DNA of 34,615 nucleotides. Origin: a virus. Within the stretch, counting starts at the first letter, position 1, and each line of letters starts with the position of its first letter. Where the stretch lies: IMG/VR virus record IMGVR_UViG_3300046512_000208, positions 1-34,615 of that record. The stretch is one strand, 5' to 3'. The position numbers and the translations under genes are program-made. The notes under the pieces were generated by a model. It saw nothing but the letters and a program-made list of their open reading frames with translations, was not told the DNA's origin and searched no databases. Positions 1 through 26,639 of the stretch are shown here, piece after piece.

Positions 1-1322
<1,322 letters not shown>

Positions 1323-1521
1323 GAGTAATATCCTTCTACGTCTATTAAAATTCTGCCGTCTGGCGCTTTCCGCCAAACAAGATGCTTCGGCCATTTTCCG
1401 TCGCGGATTTTGGTTCTGACGGCATCGGGTGTATAGCCCGACTCCCGAGAGAACTGCTCTACGGTCTTGTATCTGACCATGTGCGTGCTCCATGCCGCCC
1501 GCGGCGGCAGAAGGTGGTGGA

Positions 1522-2247
1522 TTAGACGGCCATCTCGGCCTGGGATTCTCTCTGCCAGATCGGTGAACTGTTGTGTGATTCGATACGGTCGGCGATGACG
1601 TTGGCGCGCTGGCCGGCGGTGGGCGGGGCATACATCCCGAAGCGGCTGATACTTCCACCGTTCACCGCAGCGTTCGTGGAGTCGGCGGAGGCGAAGGGCA
1701 GGTGCTGGAAGATCGCTGGGTCGAGCATCCGCAGGCCGTGAAGTCTGCAAGCTGGGCGGCCTTGGTCGTCGCAGATGGCGCCCATCGCTGAACTGATCCG
1801 CTTCCACCATGCAGGTGTTCCCGGACTTGCCCACTGACCGGAACTGCCTATAGCCACCGTCGACCAGTCAGAAGCCAGGCGGGCGAGGCGATCAAGTGAT
1901 TCGTGAAGATGCCAAACCGGAACGCCGCGCAACTCCGTCGGCCATACCGCCAGCAGCGCGTCGTTTGCCGCCTCGTCACCATTGATCACGTCAGGAATCA
2001 GCGCCCAGTCGAAGCCAGGATGTCGGTGCCATTGCTCAACCCAGAGGATGTATCCGTCAACATCTAGGGTGCCTCCTTTCTTCCAAACCGAAAACGCGCC
2101 GTTGTCGAACACGAACGACTGGCAGACATCGGCGACTATGCCCATGTCGTCCTGGCGCGGGAACGGCACTAACGCATGCCGTCCAGCGAGGAAGCGCGCG
2201 CCGTCCTGCCGGGTGCCTCCAATCGGAGTGCCGTGGTAATGGATCAT
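1522..2247 (-). CDS. Transglycosylase-fold protein resembling TGT/DpdA
   Basis: This 241-residue protein is of a type seen in Pseudomonas phages. Its motifs align in order with tRNA-guanine transglycosylase and its DNA-acting relative DpdA: FDNGAFS at 47-53 (cf. the DSGGFQ substrate-binding loop, Asp48), FDWALIPDVI at 79-88, VPVWHLHE at 109-116, VAIGSSG at 131-137 (cf. the IGG loop), then HGLRMLDP at 170-177 followed by SADST at 188-192, in the position of the catalytic Asp near the barrel end. That family exchanges guanine for a 7-deazaguanine base. No deazaguanine-synthesis gene lies nearby, so the substrate would come from the host. The start overlaps the upstream stop as ATGA. The assignment is by motif reading and needs a profile search. 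Confidence 0.5.
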   Translation of the reverse strand: MIHYHGTPIGGTRQDGARFLAGRHALVPFPRQDDMGIVADVCQSFVFDNGAFSVWKKGGTLDVDGYILWVEQWHRHPGFDWALIPDVINGDEAANDALLAVWPTELRGVPVWHLHESLDRLARLASDWSTVAIGSSGQWASPGTPAWWKRISSAMGAICDDQGRPACRLHGLRMLDPAIFQHLPFASADSTNAAVNGGSISRFGMYAPPTAGQRANVIADRIESHNSSPIWQRESQAEMAV

Positions 2248-2489
2248 CCGCTGAGCCTCATTGTTTCGATCTCAACGCCCTGGTGCTTGGCGATGATTGT
2301 TTGATCGCCACCCAGCGCTTCGGCCAGTCGGTCGGCGATCTGCTCATGCCAACCTTTCTTGATGACCGCAGTTTCCTCCTTGATGCGCTCGACGCGGATC
2401 ATAAGAGGTGACCGGACTTCCAGTTGGTAGATGATCAATTCGCCGTCGGAAGGGCAGACGGCTGCGAAGGTGTGTCGATAAATATTCAC
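2244..2489 (-). CDS. Conserved phage hypothetical protein (81 aa)
   Basis: This 81-residue protein is not assigned to a family. The sequence is soluble and mixed alpha/beta: a strand-rich first half (ELIIYQLEVRSPLMIRVERI) and a helical second half (WHEQIADRLAEALGG). It overlaps the following transglycosylase-like gene by ATGA, so the two are probably translated together and may share a role. No transmembrane segment or cysteine cluster was seen. Confidence 0.6.
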   Translation of the reverse strand: MNIYRHTFAAVCPSDGELIIYQLEVRSPLMIRVERIKEETAVIKKGWHEQIADRLAEALGGDQTIIAKHQGVEIETMRLSG

Positions 2490-3689: not shown

Positions 3690-3963
3690 GACTTCGTCCT
3701 TGCCGCTATAGCGGCTGACTTTGAAGGGTGGGGATTACAAGTTTTGCGGGTGGAGTACGGATGTACTCCATGGGTTGATATGATGCTGAGGTTTTACACA
3801 GGCAACGGTGCCCGCTTGTCATATGGCTCTGATCACTACAAAATCCACTCCTAAATCCGGGGCGTCATAGCAAGGCGCTTCATTTAACTGAGCGTGCCGA
3901 TGACCCAAAAATTGGGTGATAAGACGATAAAAAGCTGATAGGCGAAAAGGATTGAGGCTCTCT
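3690..3963. other. Divergent intergenic region with two palindromes
   Basis: This 274-base gap separates the leftward gene starting at 3689 from the rightward moron starting at 3964. It must hold at least the moron promoter. Two perfect inverted repeats are visible: one with 8-base arms around a 4-base loop (3751-3770) and a smaller ACCCAA-AAA-TTGGGT (3903-3917). It becomes AT-rich towards the moron. No convincing gene is seen. Confidence 0.6.
3751..3770. repeat. Perfect inverted repeat, possible operator or hairpin
   Basis: TGGAGTAC and GTACTCCA face each other across the 4 bases GGAT. It lies about 60 bases upstream of the leftward gene start at 3689 and could be an operator or, if transcribed, a small hairpin. 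No T-run follows on either strand, so it is not a standard terminator. Confidence 0.5.
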
Positions 3964-4494
3964 ATGGGCTACAAAGTTGCATTTGTGTGCTTGCTTGTAT
4001 TAGTTGCGTTAATGCTCGGGCTTGCGATTGGTCACGGGATTTGGGGAGATTCTGTGTTTTGGGATCAGGCCAATAAGATCGGTATTATATTTACAATTAT
4101 TGGTACGGTTTTTACCTTTGGTACATTCTACTATTTGAATAAAATAGGAGAAAAACTTAAACGTCGTCAGCGCATTCCTGAGTCCCATAAAGATCTAGAA
4201 GCTCTTATTAAAGAGACTCGATTGGCGCTCAAGGATTGGAGCTATAGAGAGCGGGACGTAATTGAGGTGTTCCATCAAATACAAGCTCACTTGGATAACG
4301 TGAGCGCTAAATTAGATGGGGCAGATAGGGTAAAAGCCTTGAAGATATCTGGATCGATTTCTCGACAAAGCTTTTGGTATATCGGGCGAAGAAAGATATC
4401 TGAGAATGAAGGTTGGAAAATTCAAAATAATCTCAGTAGTTTTGTTACCCTGTTGGGCGCGATACACCAAGATAATGAGGTGGAAAGATTATGA
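3964..4494 (+). CDS. Two-pass membrane protein, probable moron
   Basis: This protein of 176 residues begins MGYKVAFVCLLVLVALMLGLAIGHG. It has two membrane segments (about 4-24 and 40-58: IGIIFTIIGTVFTFGTFYYL) and then a basic, helical cytoplasmic region of about 115 residues. The ATG at 3964 follows GAGG with 6 spacer bases; an in-frame TTG at 3952 lacks such a site. It is AT-rich compared with flanking phage genes and runs against the leftward operon, as expected of an acquired lysogenic-conversion gene. It overlaps the next gene by ATGA. The family is unknown; superinfection exclusion or abortive defence is a guess from context. Confidence 0.7.
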   Translation: MGYKVAFVCLLVLVALMLGLAIGHGIWGDSVFWDQANKIGIIFTIIGTVFTFGTFYYLNKIGEKLKRRQRIPESHKDLEALIKETRLALKDWSYRERDVIEVFHQIQAHLDNVSAKLDGADRVKALKISGSISRQSFWYIGRRKISENEGWKIQNNLSSFVTLLGAIHQDNEVERL

Positions 4495-4853
4495 CTGATC
4501 AGAGAATACAAAATTTATTGTTGAGTCTCATTGAGGAAACCTCAAGGGGGCGGCTGTCATGGTTTGCATCGGAAGCACCGGCAACTATGACGTTTACGAC
4601 TGACGATGTTTTTTATTTTTATGCTGAGACAAGTTTTCGTGGAACACGATTTGCAATTTATGAGCTCCGGTATCGTCATTACTTTGATGAGGCTGAGTTT
4701 TATTGGAATTCGAAAGTTCATCTCGCAGTGCTGGATAATTTTGATCGCGTACTTTGGCACGTTGGTGGTGAAATCTCGGAAGTTCTTGAGTTGTATGATG
4801 ATGTTAGGCGGAAGTTGTCGGGTATAGATGGGTTGCTGGATCAGTTCCGGTAA
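4491..4853 (+). CDS. Hypothetical protein paired with the membrane moron
   Basis: This soluble 120-residue protein begins MTDQRIQNLLLSLIEETSRG. It has many aromatic residues (FYFYAETSF, YELRYRHYF) and ends in an acidic helical tail. It starts within the stop of the upstream membrane protein (ATGA), so the two form a translationally coupled pair, and base composition is similarly AT-rich. The alternating beta strands in the centre suggest a small alpha/beta fold. No family recognised. The pairing of a membrane protein with a soluble partner is a layout also seen in toxin-antitoxin and defence modules, but nothing more specific is visible. Confidence 0.65.
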   Translation: MTDQRIQNLLLSLIEETSRGRLSWFASEAPATMTFTTDDVFYFYAETSFRGTRFAIYELRYRHYFDEAEFYWNSKVHLAVLDNFDRVLWHVGGEISEVLELYDDVRRKLSGIDGLLDQFR

Positions 4854-4983
4854 AGGCTTTTGCAAGCTTGTATCCGGTACTTGGAACTAACGAGCCAGCA
4901 ATCCCGTCCGGCATTAATCCCTTGTTTTGCCTCAGTCGGCGATATTAACTTGAGTGCGGGAGGCACTTTGGAAACGCCGAAGT

Positions 4984-7026
4984 TCATGCAGCAGCTTTCT
5001 GGGATTGAACTTTCCATGGATCGTTGGCCCTTGCCAGCGCCGACATCGGCGGCGGACTGACGCTGTTGCCGCACATGTGAACCTGTTGCGTTTTGGTGAA
5101 TGGTTTGCCGTCGGCGCCGTGGCTGATGATGTAGTCGGCGGGGAAGCCCTGGGCCTTGTACAGTTCGGCGGGTTGCAGCATCCGCAGGCAGATGTCGACG
5201 ATCACATACGGCGTGCCTTTGATAGTGACGGTGACCAAGCCGAGCCGGTCCTTGGTGGTGATCGTTGGTGCTGGCGCGTCGGCGGCGCTCATGTTCTCGG
5301 TGCCGTAGTAGCTGATCAGGAAAGCCGCGACCCGCAGCGCGCCGGCTTCAACCTCAGGCGAGAGCTGGAGCTCGACCAGCGAACTCTTTCCGCCACCGCC
5401 GGCAGTGATGGTTGGTGCTGGCTCGTTCATGGCTTGGCCGACGCTGGCGCCGAACTGACGCTCCATGAACGCAGTGACCAGACCGTGATGAGTACCGCCG
5501 GCGCTGATGGTGTGCAGCGGGTCGGCGGCGTCCCGGGCATCGCAGTTGCCACGCAGGTGCACCAAGTTCGCAGTCACCAGCTGCTGCTGGCTACCGGTGT
5601 TGGTTACAGTGGTCATCGGGTCGTCGATGCTCTTGGCGTCGGTGGTGTTGAAGCCGCCATTCATCTGGGCCATGAACACCGTCGAGATGCCCATTGCGTG
5701 TGCCGCACCGGCCGGGCGCTGATAGTTTCCGCCGCTGGTGATGGTTGGCAGCGGCTCATCGAGCGCCTTGCCTTCGTCTGCAAATCGAAACTTCACCAGG
5801 TGCGCAGCGGCGAGAGCATGCTTCACGCCGCCGGCGACGACGGTGCCGAGCGGTTGATCGAGGCCCGGCACCCGCGGCTCCTGTCCGGCGCGCTCGCCGT
5901 AACCGGTTTGAATCAGGGTTGGGCTGATGAGCGTCAGCTCGCCGAGATTGGCACAAGGCACCGTCGGCAATGGGGCGTGCGGGTCGCTGCCTTGGTGCGT
6001 GGCTGGCGCGATGATCGGGCTGGCCATGGCGAACGAGCCACCGCGCGGCCAAGAGGTCACAGTGCGCAGTGGGTCGTGTGCTGACTGCACGCTTTCGCCT
6101 GACCAGTTCGCGATCGGCACGATGAATGGGTCAGCCGCATCGATGACGAACTTCTTTATGCCCTTGGCGATCCGACGGAGGGTGGCAGGTGCCAGCGGCT
6201 TCGGTCGGGCGAAGATGCTTTTGCTTGGGATCGTCCAGTCGATGCACTCGGCAGCAGTGCGCCACTTCTTCTGGCCTTTTGTCGGGTGCTTGGCGTGGGT
6301 AGGCTCAGGCCACACGATAGGCTGGTCGTCGCAACGGGCGATCATAAACAGGCGTTCCCGGCTGGTCGGCGCGCCAAAGTCGCAGGCTTTCAGCACCCGC
6401 CACTCAACGATGTAGCCTAGGTGCTGCAACTCAGCAACGAACACAGCCCAGGTCTGCCCGCGGCGCTTCGGGTCGGGCACGAGGAACTGCTGGTGGACCG
6501 GAACCACCTCGCCCGGTGCTGCAATGCCGCCGCCCAGCTTCACGACGCGGCCGGTGGACTTGCAGCGCTTGGCGATCAGCGGCCCCCACTGGAGGATTTG
6601 TTTGACGTTTTCCAGGCTGATGACACGGGGCTTTTTTTTGCCAGCCCACTTCAGGCCGATCCACGACAGGTTGCGAATCTCGCGCTTGCGCGGCTGACCG
6701 CCGGCGGCCTGGCTGTGGTGCGTGCAATCAGGTGACATGTGGAACCAGCCCACGGCCTTACCGTCGCACTCGGTGTCCGGATCACCCTCGAACACGTCGG
6801 TTGTGTAATGCACCGCGCCCGGGTGATTCATGGTGTGCATGCTGATTGCGCTGGCACTGTGGTTCTTCGCGACGTTCACCGCGCGGCCGAGGCCCATTTC
6901 CAGCCCGGTACCGGCGCCGCCACCACCGCAGAAGAAGTCGACAACGATCTCATCGTCCTGAGTGCTGAAGCCAAGTCCGTATTGTGTTTTGAAATCGAAG
7001 GGGTGTTTCTTCTGTTGTGCGGACAT
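4984..7026 (-). CDS. Cytosine-C5 DNA methyltransferase with internal repeats
   Basis: This 680-residue enzyme transfers a methyl group from S-adenosylmethionine to cytosine C5 in DNA. Motif I is VDFFCGGGGAGTGLEMG (29-45); motif IV is SPDCTHHS (98-105) with catalytic Cys101, though the usual Pro before Cys is Asp; motif VI is ENV (139-141); motif VIII is SRERLFMIA (222-230); motif IX spans about 612-632 with QGFPADY; motif X is GNSVSPP (653-659). The region between VIII and IX is about 380 residues, far longer than usual, and holds eight copies of a P-x-x-T-(I/V)-x motif at about 319, 352, 392, 425, 470, 503, 536 and 585. No restriction partner is adjacent, so it is probably an orphan enzyme protecting phage DNA. 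Confidence 0.9.
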   Translation of the reverse strand: MSAQQKKHPFDFKTQYGLGFSTQDDEIVVDFFCGGGGAGTGLEMGLGRAVNVAKNHSASAISMHTMNHPGAVHYTTDVFEGDPDTECDGKAVGWFHMSPDCTHHSQAAGGQPRKREIRNLSWIGLKWAGKKKPRVISLENVKQILQWGPLIAKRCKSTGRVVKLGGGIAAPGEVVPVHQQFLVPDPKRRGQTWAVFVAELQHLGYIVEWRVLKACDFGAPTSRERLFMIARCDDQPIVWPEPTHAKHPTKGQKKWRTAAECIDWTIPSKSIFARPKPLAPATLRRIAKGIKKFVIDAADPFIVPIANWSGESVQSAHDPLRTVTSWPRGGSFAMASPIIAPATHQGSDPHAPLPTVPCANLGELTLISPTLIQTGYGERAGQEPRVPGLDQPLGTVVAGGVKHALAAAHLVKFRFADEGKALDEPLPTITSGGNYQRPAGAAHAMGISTVFMAQMNGGFNTTDAKSIDDPMTTVTNTGSQQQLVTANLVHLRGNCDARDAADPLHTISAGGTHHGLVTAFMERQFGASVGQAMNEPAPTITAGGGGKSSLVELQLSPEVEAGALRVAAFLISYYGTENMSAADAPAPTITTKDRLGLVTVTIKGTPYVIVDICLRMLQPAELYKAQGFPADYIISHGADGKPFTKTQQVHMCGNSVSPPPMSALARANDPWKVQSQKAAA

Positions 7027-7073: not shown

Positions 7074-7610
7074 ATGAGCTGGGAAGTCGTTTCTTGCTGG
7101 ATCGAAAGTCATCCAGGACTTGCGTCATGGGTTCAGGCAGTGGGATCGATTGCCTCAATCTGGGGAGCATTTGCTATCAGTAACAAACAACAAAAAATAC
7201 AGATAAAGCTTGCCCAAAAGGCTGCGAATGAAAAGGCTGATTCTCTTTACGCTGTAATTGAAAATGCGGTTAAAACTACAACCACATTTGGTGAGCTGTT
7301 GCAGTCGAAGCCGTCCGAGGTGGTATTCAAAGAACTCTGGCAACTGGTCTATCGGCAGCATTTGGAGTCTTCTGTTTACTCGCTCGGCAAGCTTCCAGCG
7401 CACGAACTCGGAGGCTATGAGGCAGTTAGAGCGTACAGTGGAGTCATGGGCGCACTTACTGACGTCGTCCGAAAGGTGAATACGTATTTTTCATCGAGCG
7501 CGTTTCAGTCATCGGAGTATTTTTATATGTGCGACGAGGCTCTCAAGCAAGTTCGATTTGTTGAATCAAACTGGATAGGTTTTCAACAGGCGGCTCGACT
7601 TAGTAGTTGA
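7074..7610 (+). CDS. Single-pass membrane protein, probable moron
   Basis: This protein of 178 residues begins MSWEVVSCWIESHPGLASW. A membrane segment (about 19-36, VQAVGSIASIWGAFAIS) is followed by a basic helical stretch (KQQKIQIKLAQKAANEKA) and a soluble helical domain. A strong ribosome site (AGGGGAGT) lies just before the ATG. It runs opposite to the leftward early operon and has lower GC than the methyltransferase next to it. A weak GC hairpin (7624-7639) follows its stop. The membrane-anchor-then-coil plan resembles the genes at 3964 and 33415. Family not recognised. Confidence 0.7.
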   Translation: MSWEVVSCWIESHPGLASWVQAVGSIASIWGAFAISNKQQKIQIKLAQKAANEKADSLYAVIENAVKTTTTFGELLQSKPSEVVFKELWQLVYRQHLESSVYSLGKLPAHELGGYEAVRAYSGVMGALTDVVRKVNTYFSSSAFQSSEYFYMCDEALKQVRFVESNWIGFQQAARLSS

Positions 7611-7947: not shown

Positions 7948-8068
7948 TATCTCAGTCAGGCGCCGCCCTCCGTGACAGGATGCGCAGCATGGAATGGTGA
8001 TGGCATTTTGATCTGTATTCGGGTAAACAGGTAGATTCAAACTGCCCTTAATGGAAGGAAGCAAGCGT

Positions 8069-8515
8069 ATGAATAAAGCGGATTTTGATTACGATCACGG
8101 GAAGTTTCGTAACGAGTTGAGCAAAGCGACTTTCGCCTTCAAACGTATTAAGGATCAACTTAATAAAAATTTTGATCATTGGGTTGAGTTAGGTCCTAAA
8201 TTTTTAGATGGCAACATCGCCATCACAGTTAATCAAGATAGGGACGGCGTTACGGGGTTTGTTGCCGGAAAAAAATTCTCATTATCTCTGATGCCCCTAG
8301 CCATTGAAGGGGAGAACTACGGGTTAGTTGCTGTCTCCATTACCGATCCGGTGACAAAAAACGCCCTAGAAGTAGAACGCTTTCTCGTTTCGATACACGG
8401 CGACGTTCTCTCTACTGATAAGGAGGTGCTGTTGAGCTGGGAAGATGATTTTCAGAGCTTAAAACTTCTTATCGCTATAACTAGAAGTGTTCTGCATGCA
8501 TGGCCGAAGGAGTAA
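8069..8515 (+). CDS. Hypothetical protein, probable moron
   Basis: This soluble 148-residue protein begins MNKADFDYDHGKFRNELSKA. The first third is helical and basic; the rest alternates strands and loops (GNIAITVNQD, GFVAGKKFSLSLMPLAI, YGLVAVSITDP). The start was set by GGAAGGAAG upstream of 8069; an in-frame ATG 18 bases earlier has no ribosome site. The 3' end overlaps the convergent leftward gene by 35 bases. AT-rich compared with the leftward genes. No family recognised. Confidence 0.65.
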   Translation: MNKADFDYDHGKFRNELSKATFAFKRIKDQLNKNFDHWVELGPKFLDGNIAITVNQDRDGVTGFVAGKKFSLSLMPLAIEGENYGLVAVSITDPVTKNALEVERFLVSIHGDVLSTDKEVLLSWEDDFQSLKLLIAITRSVLHAWPKE

Positions 8516-15693: not shown

Positions 15694-16227
15694 CTAGATG
15701 ACAATTGCTTTTGGGTTGAAACAAAAATCCTTATCCGAATAATCACTCAGCACATCGTAAACGAAATGAGTTTTTACCCCAAAATGCGCTGCTGCATCCG
15801 GGATCTGAATTTTGTTTTTGCGATCGGGATTGCTGAGTTCATGGGTAATGATTTCCTGATTGTACGCCATAGCGGTTGCAATCAGGAATGCATCTGCAAC
15901 TTCGGCGCGGGCGAACTCAACCTTTGCTGCTGGTTTAAAATGAGTATTGCTTGCCGTCCAAAGCATTATCTCCCGGTATTTTGAGATTACTTTGGGGTCG
16001 GTGTCGTCAGGGATAAAAAACGTATCAGGGAGTGTGGCGACCCATTTTTTTACAGGGTCGTCGTCTTGACCTTTCATAAGCTCTTTTTTTACTTTGGACG
16101 TAGAGCAAACCATTCCTGCAGTGTGAGCTTTTTCTAGCCACGACCAAAAATGACTGCAGAATTCGAATCTATAATGAAGGTTCTTGGCCTGCAAAAAAAT
16201 ATTGGAATCGACTAAATATTTATGCAT
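15694..16227 (-). CDS. PIN-domain toxin (DUF4411 family)
   Basis: This 177-residue protein begins MHKYLVDSNIFLQAKN, the typical first strand of a PIN-domain RNase with the acidic Asp7 in VDSN. Later acidic positions appear in KKELMKG (Glu about 49), ARAEVADAFLIATA (Asp about 112) and TH-ELSNPDRK. This matches DUF4411, whose members are encoded with XRE-ImmA/IrrE partners. PIN toxins cut RNA, often tRNA or mRNA. It starts within the end of the partner gene (8-base overlap) and is AT-rich compared with neighbours, suggesting recent gain. Confidence 0.75.
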   Translation of the reverse strand: MHKYLVDSNIFLQAKNLHYRFEFCSHFWSWLEKAHTAGMVCSTSKVKKELMKGQDDDPVKKWVATLPDTFFIPDDTDPKVISKYREIMLWTASNTHFKPAAKVEFARAEVADAFLIATAMAYNQEIITHELSNPDRKNKIQIPDAAAHFGVKTHFVYDVLSDYSDKDFCFNPKAIVI

Positions 16228-17350
16228 GGCTTCGAATGTTCTTCTTATAAATGTTCGTTACGGTGTCAGGGGTTATGTTCAAAAGTCGTGCAGCATCACG
16301 AATTAAGGTTCCACCCTCGACAGCACTTTTCACCAAGGCATTCGTCAGTTTTTTACTATTTCTAACAGGAATCGTAGCGTAAGGGTTTCCTCCAGATCCG
16401 GCAGACTTCCAGCTGCTCGCATATAGAGAGCCATACAAATCCCTAGTGATTTTACCTAGCTCAAACGCGCGTCTACCAATGACTAGTCTGCTCACTTTGA
16501 AATGTCTACTTGCACGGTCTATCGATTCAAGTTCGCCGCCTTTCCATATTGCAAGAAACTCATCTTTTGGAACTAGTAATTCAGCCGCGACCATATTGCA
16601 ATAAGACTCAACGTTCCTGCCGGATTTGAAATCTCGCGGAGAGGGGATGTCGGAAACTCCGCTTTCACCAATCCATATATGAGCCACTTCATGGGCTAAG
16701 GTAAAGATCCACGCGGCATCAGCATCTTTCCCATTGATAAAAACGGCAGGAGCGTAATCGTCACAGATGGCAAATCCACGAAACTCTGCAACAGATAGCC
16801 CTCTCTTTGTATTGCTTTTGACAATGCCACTTTTGAACACGAGTATCCCAATAGACTCGAATTTTTCCGATATGACCCTGAAATACTCTTCATGATTTGA
16901 GCAGGATTTTCTTAGCTCTTGATTAATTCCAGCAATCTTGGAAATATCGCCAGCCACTTCCTCAATTGTGCTCGATAGCCCGAATCGACCAACAAACTCG
17001 AGAGGGTCGGCGCCAATATCATTTAAATAGTCTAAGTACCAACTTTGCTTGGCTAAGACATCGTCTAATACGTCAAAAAAATCAGCTCCCAAAGGTTCAG
17101 GGGAGGTTACCTGACGCATATCAGGGAGTTTGGGCTTTTCAAGTGTGGGCGGTGCATCCAAAAGTAGGTAGCCGAACGGTGTACGAGTCACCGAGGCCAC
17201 TTTCTCGAGCTGGCGGATAGTCAGCTCACCACTCAAAAATCTGTCAATACCTCTCCCAGACGCTATGGAGGAGGCGAGATCCTCAAGCGATTTACCGATT
17301 TGGCTGGCCGCCCAGTCAAGCATTGCCAGAGAGATGTTTAGCGTATCCAT
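16220..17350 (-). CDS. XRE-ImmA/IrrE antitoxin-type metallopeptidase
   Basis: This 376-residue protein has an N-terminal XRE helix-turn-helix (about 8-60, with LASSIASGRGIDRFLSGE and LEKVASVTRTPFGYLL) and a central ImmA/IrrE (DUF955) domain with the zinc motif HEVAH at 220-224 and the third-ligand helix AAELLVP (Glu257 region). A C-terminal segment contains a second helix-turn-helix-like stretch, LIRDAARLLNITPDTVTNIYKK. Upstream of a DUF4411 PIN toxin this type probably acts as antitoxin and autorepressor. It could also cleave a phage repressor, as ImmA does for ICEBs1; its place between the prophage operators makes this worth testing. Confidence 0.8.
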   Translation of the reverse strand: MDTLNISLAMLDWAASQIGKSLEDLASSIASGRGIDRFLSGELTIRQLEKVASVTRTPFGYLLLDAPPTLEKPKLPDMRQVTSPEPLGADFFDVLDDVLAKQSWYLDYLNDIGADPLEFVGRFGLSSTIEEVAGDISKIAGINQELRKSCSNHEEYFRVISEKFESIGILVFKSGIVKSNTKRGLSVAEFRGFAICDDYAPAVFINGKDADAAWIFTLAHEVAHIWIGESGVSDIPSPRDFKSGRNVESYCNMVAAELLVPKDEFLAIWKGGELESIDRASRHFKVSRLVIGRRAFELGKITRDLYGSLYASSWKSAGSGGNPYATIPVRNSKKLTNALVKSAVEGGTLIRDAARLLNITPDTVTNIYKKNIRSHA

Positions 17351-25517: not shown

Positions 25518-26045
25518 TCAAGCAGAAGGGTCTGCTTCGGCGGCCACTGTGTGCAACGTTAGTGCATCGCTGTAAGCGCTCAACTCAGTGCGGATGCAAC
25601 GAACGCGACTGTCGGAAAGCAATACTCCGCGAAGGTGCAATATGTGGCCGTTCACGTGCTGCCTGTACGTGCTGTACTCGGCTATCACTGAGTGGGGCAT
25701 TGATACAGCCTCAACTACCTCGTATGACTCATTGAAAACTACTGCAACCAGTTCGTCGAAGTCGTTTTTTTCCAAATTACGGATAACGCCTAGCTGTCTG
25801 GATTTGTTGTTGGGGTTTACCCGTCGCGCTTTTATTTGGATCTTTTTGCCAGTTTCAGATTCTGCGTCGTGACCTGCTGCTGAGTTATTGGCGAGCTTCA
25901 AACCTAGAGCTGAAGCAACCAGCCACTCAGCGTAGTCGCCAGTGGGGTTGTTCATGGTCCTCAAGATACCTCGATTTCTAAGCTCGCCTATCACATCAGA
26001 CTGGAGTTTGAGCAAGTCTTTGGTTTGCAGGTTGGTGAGATTCAT
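25518..26045 (-). CDS. DUF6998-like protein with PD-(D/E)XK-type motifs
   Basis: This 175-residue protein begins MNLTNLQTKDLLKLQSDVIGEL. The core is PTGDYAEWLVASALGLKL (about 33-50), then AAGHDAESETGKKIQIKARRV (56-76): an Asp-containing turn followed by a strand with QIK matches the E...D...QxK pattern of PD-(D/E)XK nucleases. A further pair of strands (FDELVAVVFNESYEVVEAVSM) and HVNGHILHLRG complete a pattern I associate with DUF6998. It is on the opposite strand to late transcription, so it may be lysogenically expressed. Nuclease function, perhaps in defence, is inferred. Confidence 0.55.
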   Translation of the reverse strand: MNLTNLQTKDLLKLQSDVIGELRNRGILRTMNNPTGDYAEWLVASALGLKLANNSAAGHDAESETGKKIQIKARRVNPNNKSRQLGVIRNLEKNDFDELVAVVFNESYEVVEAVSMPHSVIAEYSTYRQHVNGHILHLRGVLLSDSRVRCIRTELSAYSDALTLHTVAAEADPSA

Positions 26046-26162
26046 TCTTGAGTGTCCTTTGCTGGTGGAGCCTTCGCTAAGTGCTTGATCAATTTTGGCC
26101 CTTCACTGCCAGCCTCTGCTGCAGCTCTTTGGCGGGCAGCGTGGAAAGACGCGCGCACCTTT

Positions 26163-26588
26163 TCAGGTTGCCTCAACAGACACCTTTAGGCGTTTGCCGA
26201 GTGCAGCCAAAGCATTTTCGAGCTGTTCCATTTTCGATGTGTGCAGGAAGTCCACCAGGCGATCGCCCTGGGCCTGATGCACGCCGAGCAGCCGGCACAA
26301 GTCGGCTTTGCGCATATCTCGCTCCATCATGACGTTCCACAGCGCGATCTTCGCCACGGTTACCGCTGGTAGGTGAATTACTTCCTCGCCTGCCTCTGGT
26401 GGAGATGCCGCCGGAATTGCTAGTCGCTGATCGACGAAGATGGACAGGGTTGTTTCGATGGCATCCACTGCTTCGCTGATGGCGTGTTCTCGATCATCGC
26501 CATAGCTATTCAGTAAAGGAAGATCCCGGCAGTACACCGCCAGACCTGGACACGTGTCTTCCTCAAAACGGATTGCATAGTCGTACAT
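26163..26588 (-). CDS. hicB: HicB-family antitoxin
   Basis: This 141-residue antitoxin begins MYDYAIRFEEDTCPGLAVYC, the partly degraded RNase-H-like HicB fold, with the typical GDDREHAISEAVDAIETTL helix (about 31-49). A C-terminal helix-turn-helix follows (KIALWNVMMERDMRKADLCRLLGVHQAQGDRLVDF, about 80-115), used for autorepression. GGAG precedes the ATG at 26588. It pairs with HicA just upstream in the same direction (51-base gap). Confidence 0.85.
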   Translation of the reverse strand: MYDYAIRFEEDTCPGLAVYCRDLPLLNSYGDDREHAISEAVDAIETTLSIFVDQRLAIPAASPPEAGEEVIHLPAVTVAKIALWNVMMERDMRKADLCRLLGVHQAQGDRLVDFLHTSKMEQLENALAALGKRLKVSVEAT

Positions 26589-26639
26589 GGTCACTCCTAG
26601 GAGGTGATCGTCCAGCATTCAGATGTGGTGAAGGGGCTC

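Follow-up and report, generated by a model that had tools for sequence, protein, structure and literature searches.

A short stand-alone DpdA-family protein of a temperate Pseudomonas phage and candidate precursor genes beside its relatives

DpdA of the 9g/CAjan type, a preQ0 DNA deoxyribosyltransferase of 306–317 aa, is encoded together with FolE/QueD and other preQ0-pathway genes, and the dPreQ0 in the DNA of phage CAjan requires the phage DpdA (Hutinet et al., PMC6884629). The same study described a "third group" of 76 phages with a stand-alone DpdA and no preQ0 genes, judged that genome modification could not be predicted for such proteins, and found YhhQ to be correlated with no phage group. 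Salmonella phage 7-11, which has DpdA only, carries dADG at 0.02% of G (PMC6884629), and Pantoea phage MED16, with a sole DpdA of the short kind, carries it at 0.13% of G; MED16 DNA is still cut by enzymes that a deazaguanine should hinder, with no noticeable restriction effect (PMC8306585). Given so sparse a mark in the two phages and the continued cutting of MED16 DNA, protection is doubtful. A stand-alone DpdA of a different group occurs in mycobacteriophage Orion, whose DNA has no modification, as expected from a host that lacks the pathway. The discoverers flagged phage DpdA singletons as possibly functionally diverged, and a 2023 NAR paper reportedly adds further phage deazaguanines.

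We analyzed a 34,615-base virus record (hereafter, the window) with DNA similarity to Pseudomonas phages. Prophages carrying close relatives of its DpdA gene lie mainly in Pseudomonas genomes, and the source of the gene is a temperate Pseudomonas phage, represented here by a prophage-like piece. Since the "third group" of 76 phages has been published, the arrangement itself is not new; the window extends the stand-alone DpdAs by a temperate Pseudomonas clade. The features of the locus are collected in Table 1, together with examples from related loci.

Table 1. Positions of the DpdA-family gene, its conserved codons, other window genes, and precursor-related genes in related loci
Record	Feature	Position	Strand	Remarks
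Window	Tyrosine integrase	138..1325	minus	Arm-DNA-bind_2, SAM-like and Phage_integrase domains; true start uncertain, ORF reaches 1658
Window	Excisionase, ~92 aa	1202..1480	minus	phrog_9668, E = 9.9e-28; follows the DpdA stop after 41 bp
Window	Putative base-exchange enzyme of the DpdA/TGT family	1522..2247	minus	241 aa; a full-length family member
Window	Asp189 codon (SADST; SCDSSS in 9g DpdA)	1681..1683	minus	Asp in 67/68 rows; aligned with 9g DpdA
Window	His170 codon (HGLRM; VHGFG in 9g DpdA)	1738..1740	minus	68/68 rows
Window	His113 codon (VWH)	1909..1911	minus	68/68 rows
Window	Asp86 codon (IPD)	1990..1992	minus	68/68 rows, including 9g DpdA
Window	Asp48 codon (FDNGAFS)	2104..2106	minus	68/68 rows; aligned with Asp of LDSGAFS in 9g DpdA and, by motif, of TDSGGFQ in TGT
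Window	81-aa gene, phrog_37496	2244..2489	minus	Directly upstream of DpdA; kept by most close relatives
Window	ORF	3952..4853	plus	
Window	Cytosine-C5 methyltransferase, 680 aa	4984..7026	minus	
Window	ORF	7074..7610	plus	
Window	ORF	8051..8515	plus	
Window	DUF4411 protein and IrrE/M78 peptidase	15694..17350	minus	
Window	DUF6998 protein and HicB-like HTH protein	25518..26618	minus	
L066	YhhQ-like (Vut_1)	5525..6004		26 further loci beyond the four examples given
L084	YhhQ-like (Vut_1)	4935..5468		
L093	YhhQ-like (Vut_1)	4728..5222		
L086	YhhQ-like (Vut_1)	4720..5193		
L235	QueD-bearing contig	4097..5681		
L234, L236, L247, L227, L231–L233	QueD-bearing contigs			

The first-pass annotation had placed the open reading frame exactly and given its 241 codons correctly, while leaving unstated that it lies on the minus strand. 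All of the motifs it had listed occur in the order described (F47-D48-N-G-A-F-S53, IPDV at 84–87, IGSSG at 133–137, HGLRMLDP at 170–177, and S187-A-D189-S-T191), and its numbering of Asp48 and Asp189 is right. Its remark that the protein has "only 241 residues" is correct as to length but not as a hint of truncation: 230–280 aa is usual for the family (234 aa in 7-11, 261 aa in MED16), and members of the short family mostly measure about 225–280 aa, so that the length is normal. Across 75 gap-free comparisons of the gene with relatives, substitutions at codon positions 1, 2, and 3 numbered 2079, 1243, and 8174, respectively, and dN/dS (NG86) was approximately 0.04–0.11 against five relatives; the gene is intact, real, and under strong purifying selection.

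The window protein almost certainly belongs to the DpdA family. It falls into phrog_887 ("queuine tRNA-ribosyltransferase"; PHROGs, E = 2.5e-66), which also takes the experimentally validated DpdA of 9g, the DpdA of BcepGomr, and the proteins of phages 7-11 and MED16. In BLASTP, it matched the MED16 protein at 39.9% identity (E = 3e-47), that of 7-11 at 37.6% (E = 2e-31), and 9g DpdA with E = 3e-7. Genes for relatives occur in at least 201 phage records of GenBank, in 28 plasmids, and in at least 596 viral-contig stretches. A profile of the short family, built from 49 diverse members, aligned with 9g-type DpdA over 152 columns (hhalign, Prob 98.3, E = 2.4e-14), superposing DNGAFS on DSGAFS and ADST on CDSS, Asp48 and Asp189 included. 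The His motifs are likewise superposed on those of the 9g/CAjan-type enzymes, which nevertheless differ from the window protein in their greater length, their accompanying preQ0-pathway genes, and their sequence (~24% identity).

The kinship with tRNA-guanine transglycosylases (TGTs) is more distant. Pfam, NCBIfam, and PADLOC gave no match to the window protein, the Pfam TGT model PF01702 matched none of the 49 family members, and a PDB sequence search with the window protein returned chance matches only; these null results say little against TGT kinship, because the structural match is at approximately 8%–13% identity. Against 14 host TGTs, the short-family profile aligned at the DNGAFS/DSGGFQ motif only and not significantly (Prob 0.3, E = 0.17), and the 9g-type DpdA profile did scarcely better (Prob 3.2, E = 0.014). 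The family is therefore tied to TGT by structure and by way of 9g DpdA as an intermediate. In a tree with rough bootstrap values, from which phage nt-1 is absent, a long branch splits the 9g-type DpdAs from the short family, and MED16 and 7-11 fall into a different clade of that family from the window protein.

Among studied proteins, 7-11 gp032 and MED16 gp38 (37.6% and 39.9% identity, respectively) are the closest to the window protein, with which they share PHROG, size class, and motifs. The authors report no preQ0 synthesis genes for either phage, and our search of the two genomes found no QueC. The window differs from both in clade, its own being known from sequence, and in its setting, a temperate Pseudomonas phage with the gene near those for an excisionase and an integrase.

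An AlphaFold model built from the 49-member family alignment (pLDDT 90.5, pTM 0.88) predicts a TGT-type barrel. After realignment with VIA-align, the best PDB match was archaeosine TGT (1iq8; Z = 15.8, rmsd 3.1, 223 residues), with Cap10 of type IV CBASS third (9ntn, Z = 15.1), followed by human TGT (14.8) and bacterial TGTs (~14.7); the TGT family accounted for 50 of the 50 matches listed. Plain Foldseek against the PDB gave E-values of about the same level for archaeosine TGT, tryptophan synthase alpha, and further TIM barrels. Named matches in a viral structure library included several phage proteins annotated as queuine tRNA-ribosyltransferase, and an uncharacterized protein (R9TGF0) of Vibrio phage nt-1, the source phage of DpdA2, matched only weakly (E = 1.4e-2). 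The first-pass annotation, which had called the product an orphan TGT/DpdA-like protein and proposed comparing its profile and predicted structure with TGT and DpdA, is thus borne out by the shared PHROG, the hhalign match to 9g-type DpdA, the TGTs at the top of the realigned structural matches, and the conserved Asp and His residues.

The catalytic aspartates of TGT are Asp102 and Asp280. Asp48 and Asp189 of the window protein appear equivalent to them by way of the alignment with 9g DpdA, and Asp189 would then be the nucleophile; Asp86 is likely the base-recognizing aspartate, its role being carried over from TGT. Conservation of these residues was assessed in an alignment of 68 rows that included 9g, BcepGomr, Vid5, and Funsized (Table 1). 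The window protein shares with bacterial and archaeosine TGTs the TIM barrel (Z 14.7–15.8) and the resemblance of DNGAFS to DSGGFQ, but it is far shorter (241 aa versus ~360–577 aa) and lacks the CxCxxC zinc motif; its only cysteines are three scattered ones (Cys42, Cys159, and Cys167), so it does not have the zinc site found in tRNA TGTs.

The start of the DpdA gene and the stop of the 81-aa gene share 4 bases (ATGA), which makes a common message likely. Six close relatives have a YhhQ-like transporter in place of the 81-aa gene directly upstream of DpdA. We considered the 81-aa gene as an obligate partner of DpdA and rejected this, as its profile, which is iterated and shows some drift (e.g., L121), also matches 31 loci without DpdA in the stretch examined.

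The DNA methyltransferase that the first-pass annotation had noted in the same arm is present, but its link to the DpdA gene is loose. A methyltransferase match occurs in the flanks of only 25 of 80 close relatives of the DpdA gene and, conversely, the DpdA gene is found in only 7 of 79 loci retrieved through the methyltransferase; a DpdA–methyltransferase module was rejected on this low co-occurrence both ways. As a separate observation, the middle part of the methyltransferase contains a series of repeats of about 30–60 residues of the D-P-[LM]-x-T-[VI]-x-x-G-G kind, an unusual target-recognition region.

No preQ0 synthesis gene turned up in the scanned ORFs of the 34.6 kb, in keeping with the original reading of the locus, and Vut_1/YhhQ, QueD, and QueE had no match in the window, which may be a fragment of a larger genome. 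The accompanying suggestion that the phage draws on host queuosine precursors is plausible: QueC and TGT are encoded in 11 of 11 host genomes checked, a result of little power since both are common in bacteria.

Among relatives, a YhhQ-like queuosine-precursor transporter was found in 30 loci, which span several clades and are not independent counts. In all 30 it shares the strand of the DpdA gene and sits no more than 0.5 kb away, preceding the gene in certain clades and following it in the rest; six of the loci belong to the window's own subfamily. Nearly all of the records tested matched Pfam Vut_1 above its cut-off, with the NCBIfam TIGR00697 match remaining below. No such transporter was present in 72 related-phage loci (826 kb) without the DpdA gene. 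In eight viral contigs and in Caulobacter phage DMCA (L094), a QueD-like gene lies directly upstream of DpdA, and four of the contigs carry QueE as well; QueE of L235 scores above its curated cut-off, the QueD-like proteins hit QueD without reaching the cut-offs, and those QueD- or QueE-bearing records that were tested lack a Vut_1 match throughout. QueC was found in none of 21 records tested. The QueD/QueE arrangement suggests a partial pathway that either ends at 7-carboxy-7-deazaguanine or is completed by the host. The YhhQ-like adjacency across clades is concrete genomic evidence for the use of queuosine-type precursors by the short DpdA family and points to family members worth chemical testing; together with the QueD/QueE adjacency, it constitutes a modest new lead on these proteins.

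We consider it probable that the window protein is a short stand-alone phage DpdA that uses host-made precursors for base exchange on phage DNA. As a TGT-fold transglycosylase without a zinc site, it would exchange guanine in phage DNA, with Asp189 acting as the nucleophile and Asp48 as the general acid/base, by analogy with TGT. Guanine would leave and a 7-deazaguanine base (preQ0 or a relative) would enter at a minority of sites, possibly to be converted later to the amide ADG. The free base would come from the queuosine pathway of the Pseudomonas host, supplemented in related phages by a YhhQ-like importer or by QueD, alone or with QueE. Phage DNA would thereby probably gain concealment from host enzymes that read guanine N7.

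The protein might instead be a phage tRNA-guanine transglycosylase that alters wobble modification of host or phage tRNA for phage translation, the dADG of its relatives being a side reaction. The fold, the hosts' QueC and TGT, which mean that a tRNA pathway exists, and the very sparse DNA mark in relatives (PMC6884629, PMC8306585) would all suit such an enzyme; furthermore, labeling of DNA substrates with a bacterial TGT has precedent (PMC10103133), so that tRNA and DNA substrates are not far apart. We regard this explanation as unlikely, however, given that the Pfam TGT model matches 0 of 49 members, the CxCxxC site is missing, the host has its own TGT, and the mark of the closest studied relatives sits in DNA.

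Improbable to a greater degree is a TGT fold repurposed for another task, such as joining a deazaguanine to protein, as Cap10 does, or the removal or salvage of modified bases. The protein agrees with 9g DpdA in sequence and catalytic motifs, and no CBASS gene was recognized by Pfam among the window ORFs scanned, neither the nucleotidyltransferase nor a QueC-like Cap9; set against this are the rank of Cap10 among the structural matches (third, Z = 15.1, with a TGT-family fold) and its action on protein in CBASS (PMC11996544), showing that the fold can be redirected. TGT and Cap10 score equally in Z, so that fold by itself is not decisive here. That the gene is a decayed, non-functional prophage leftover is hardly credible: the dN/dS of 0.04–0.11 contradicts decay, the frame is intact, the key residues are all kept, and there are hundreds of relatives, against the general point that the record is a prophage-like piece.

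Extending the preferred reading, a short DpdA exchanging bases in phage DNA, to the whole family, it is possible, if doubtful, that short DpdAs are modular, with one exchange enzyme and a varying precursor supply: the host only in the window, YhhQ-like import in some relatives, and, in others, QueD either alone or together with QueE, with QueC absent. The QueD version could insert 7-carboxy-7-deazaguanine, and the marks would be sparse and possibly sequence-specific rather than bulk armor.

Several further genes of the window deserve mention (Table 1). Three plus-strand ORFs, in which no domain was recognized, are scattered among the minus-strand early genes and are possible morons or defense genes. 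The DUF6998 protein lies near a weak HicB-like HTH protein, both on the strand opposite to the surrounding genes. Finally, the DUF4411 protein adjoins an IrrE/M78 peptidase that may contain an HTH; the two lie close to where GC is lowest (0.479) and resemble a toxin–antitoxin pair.
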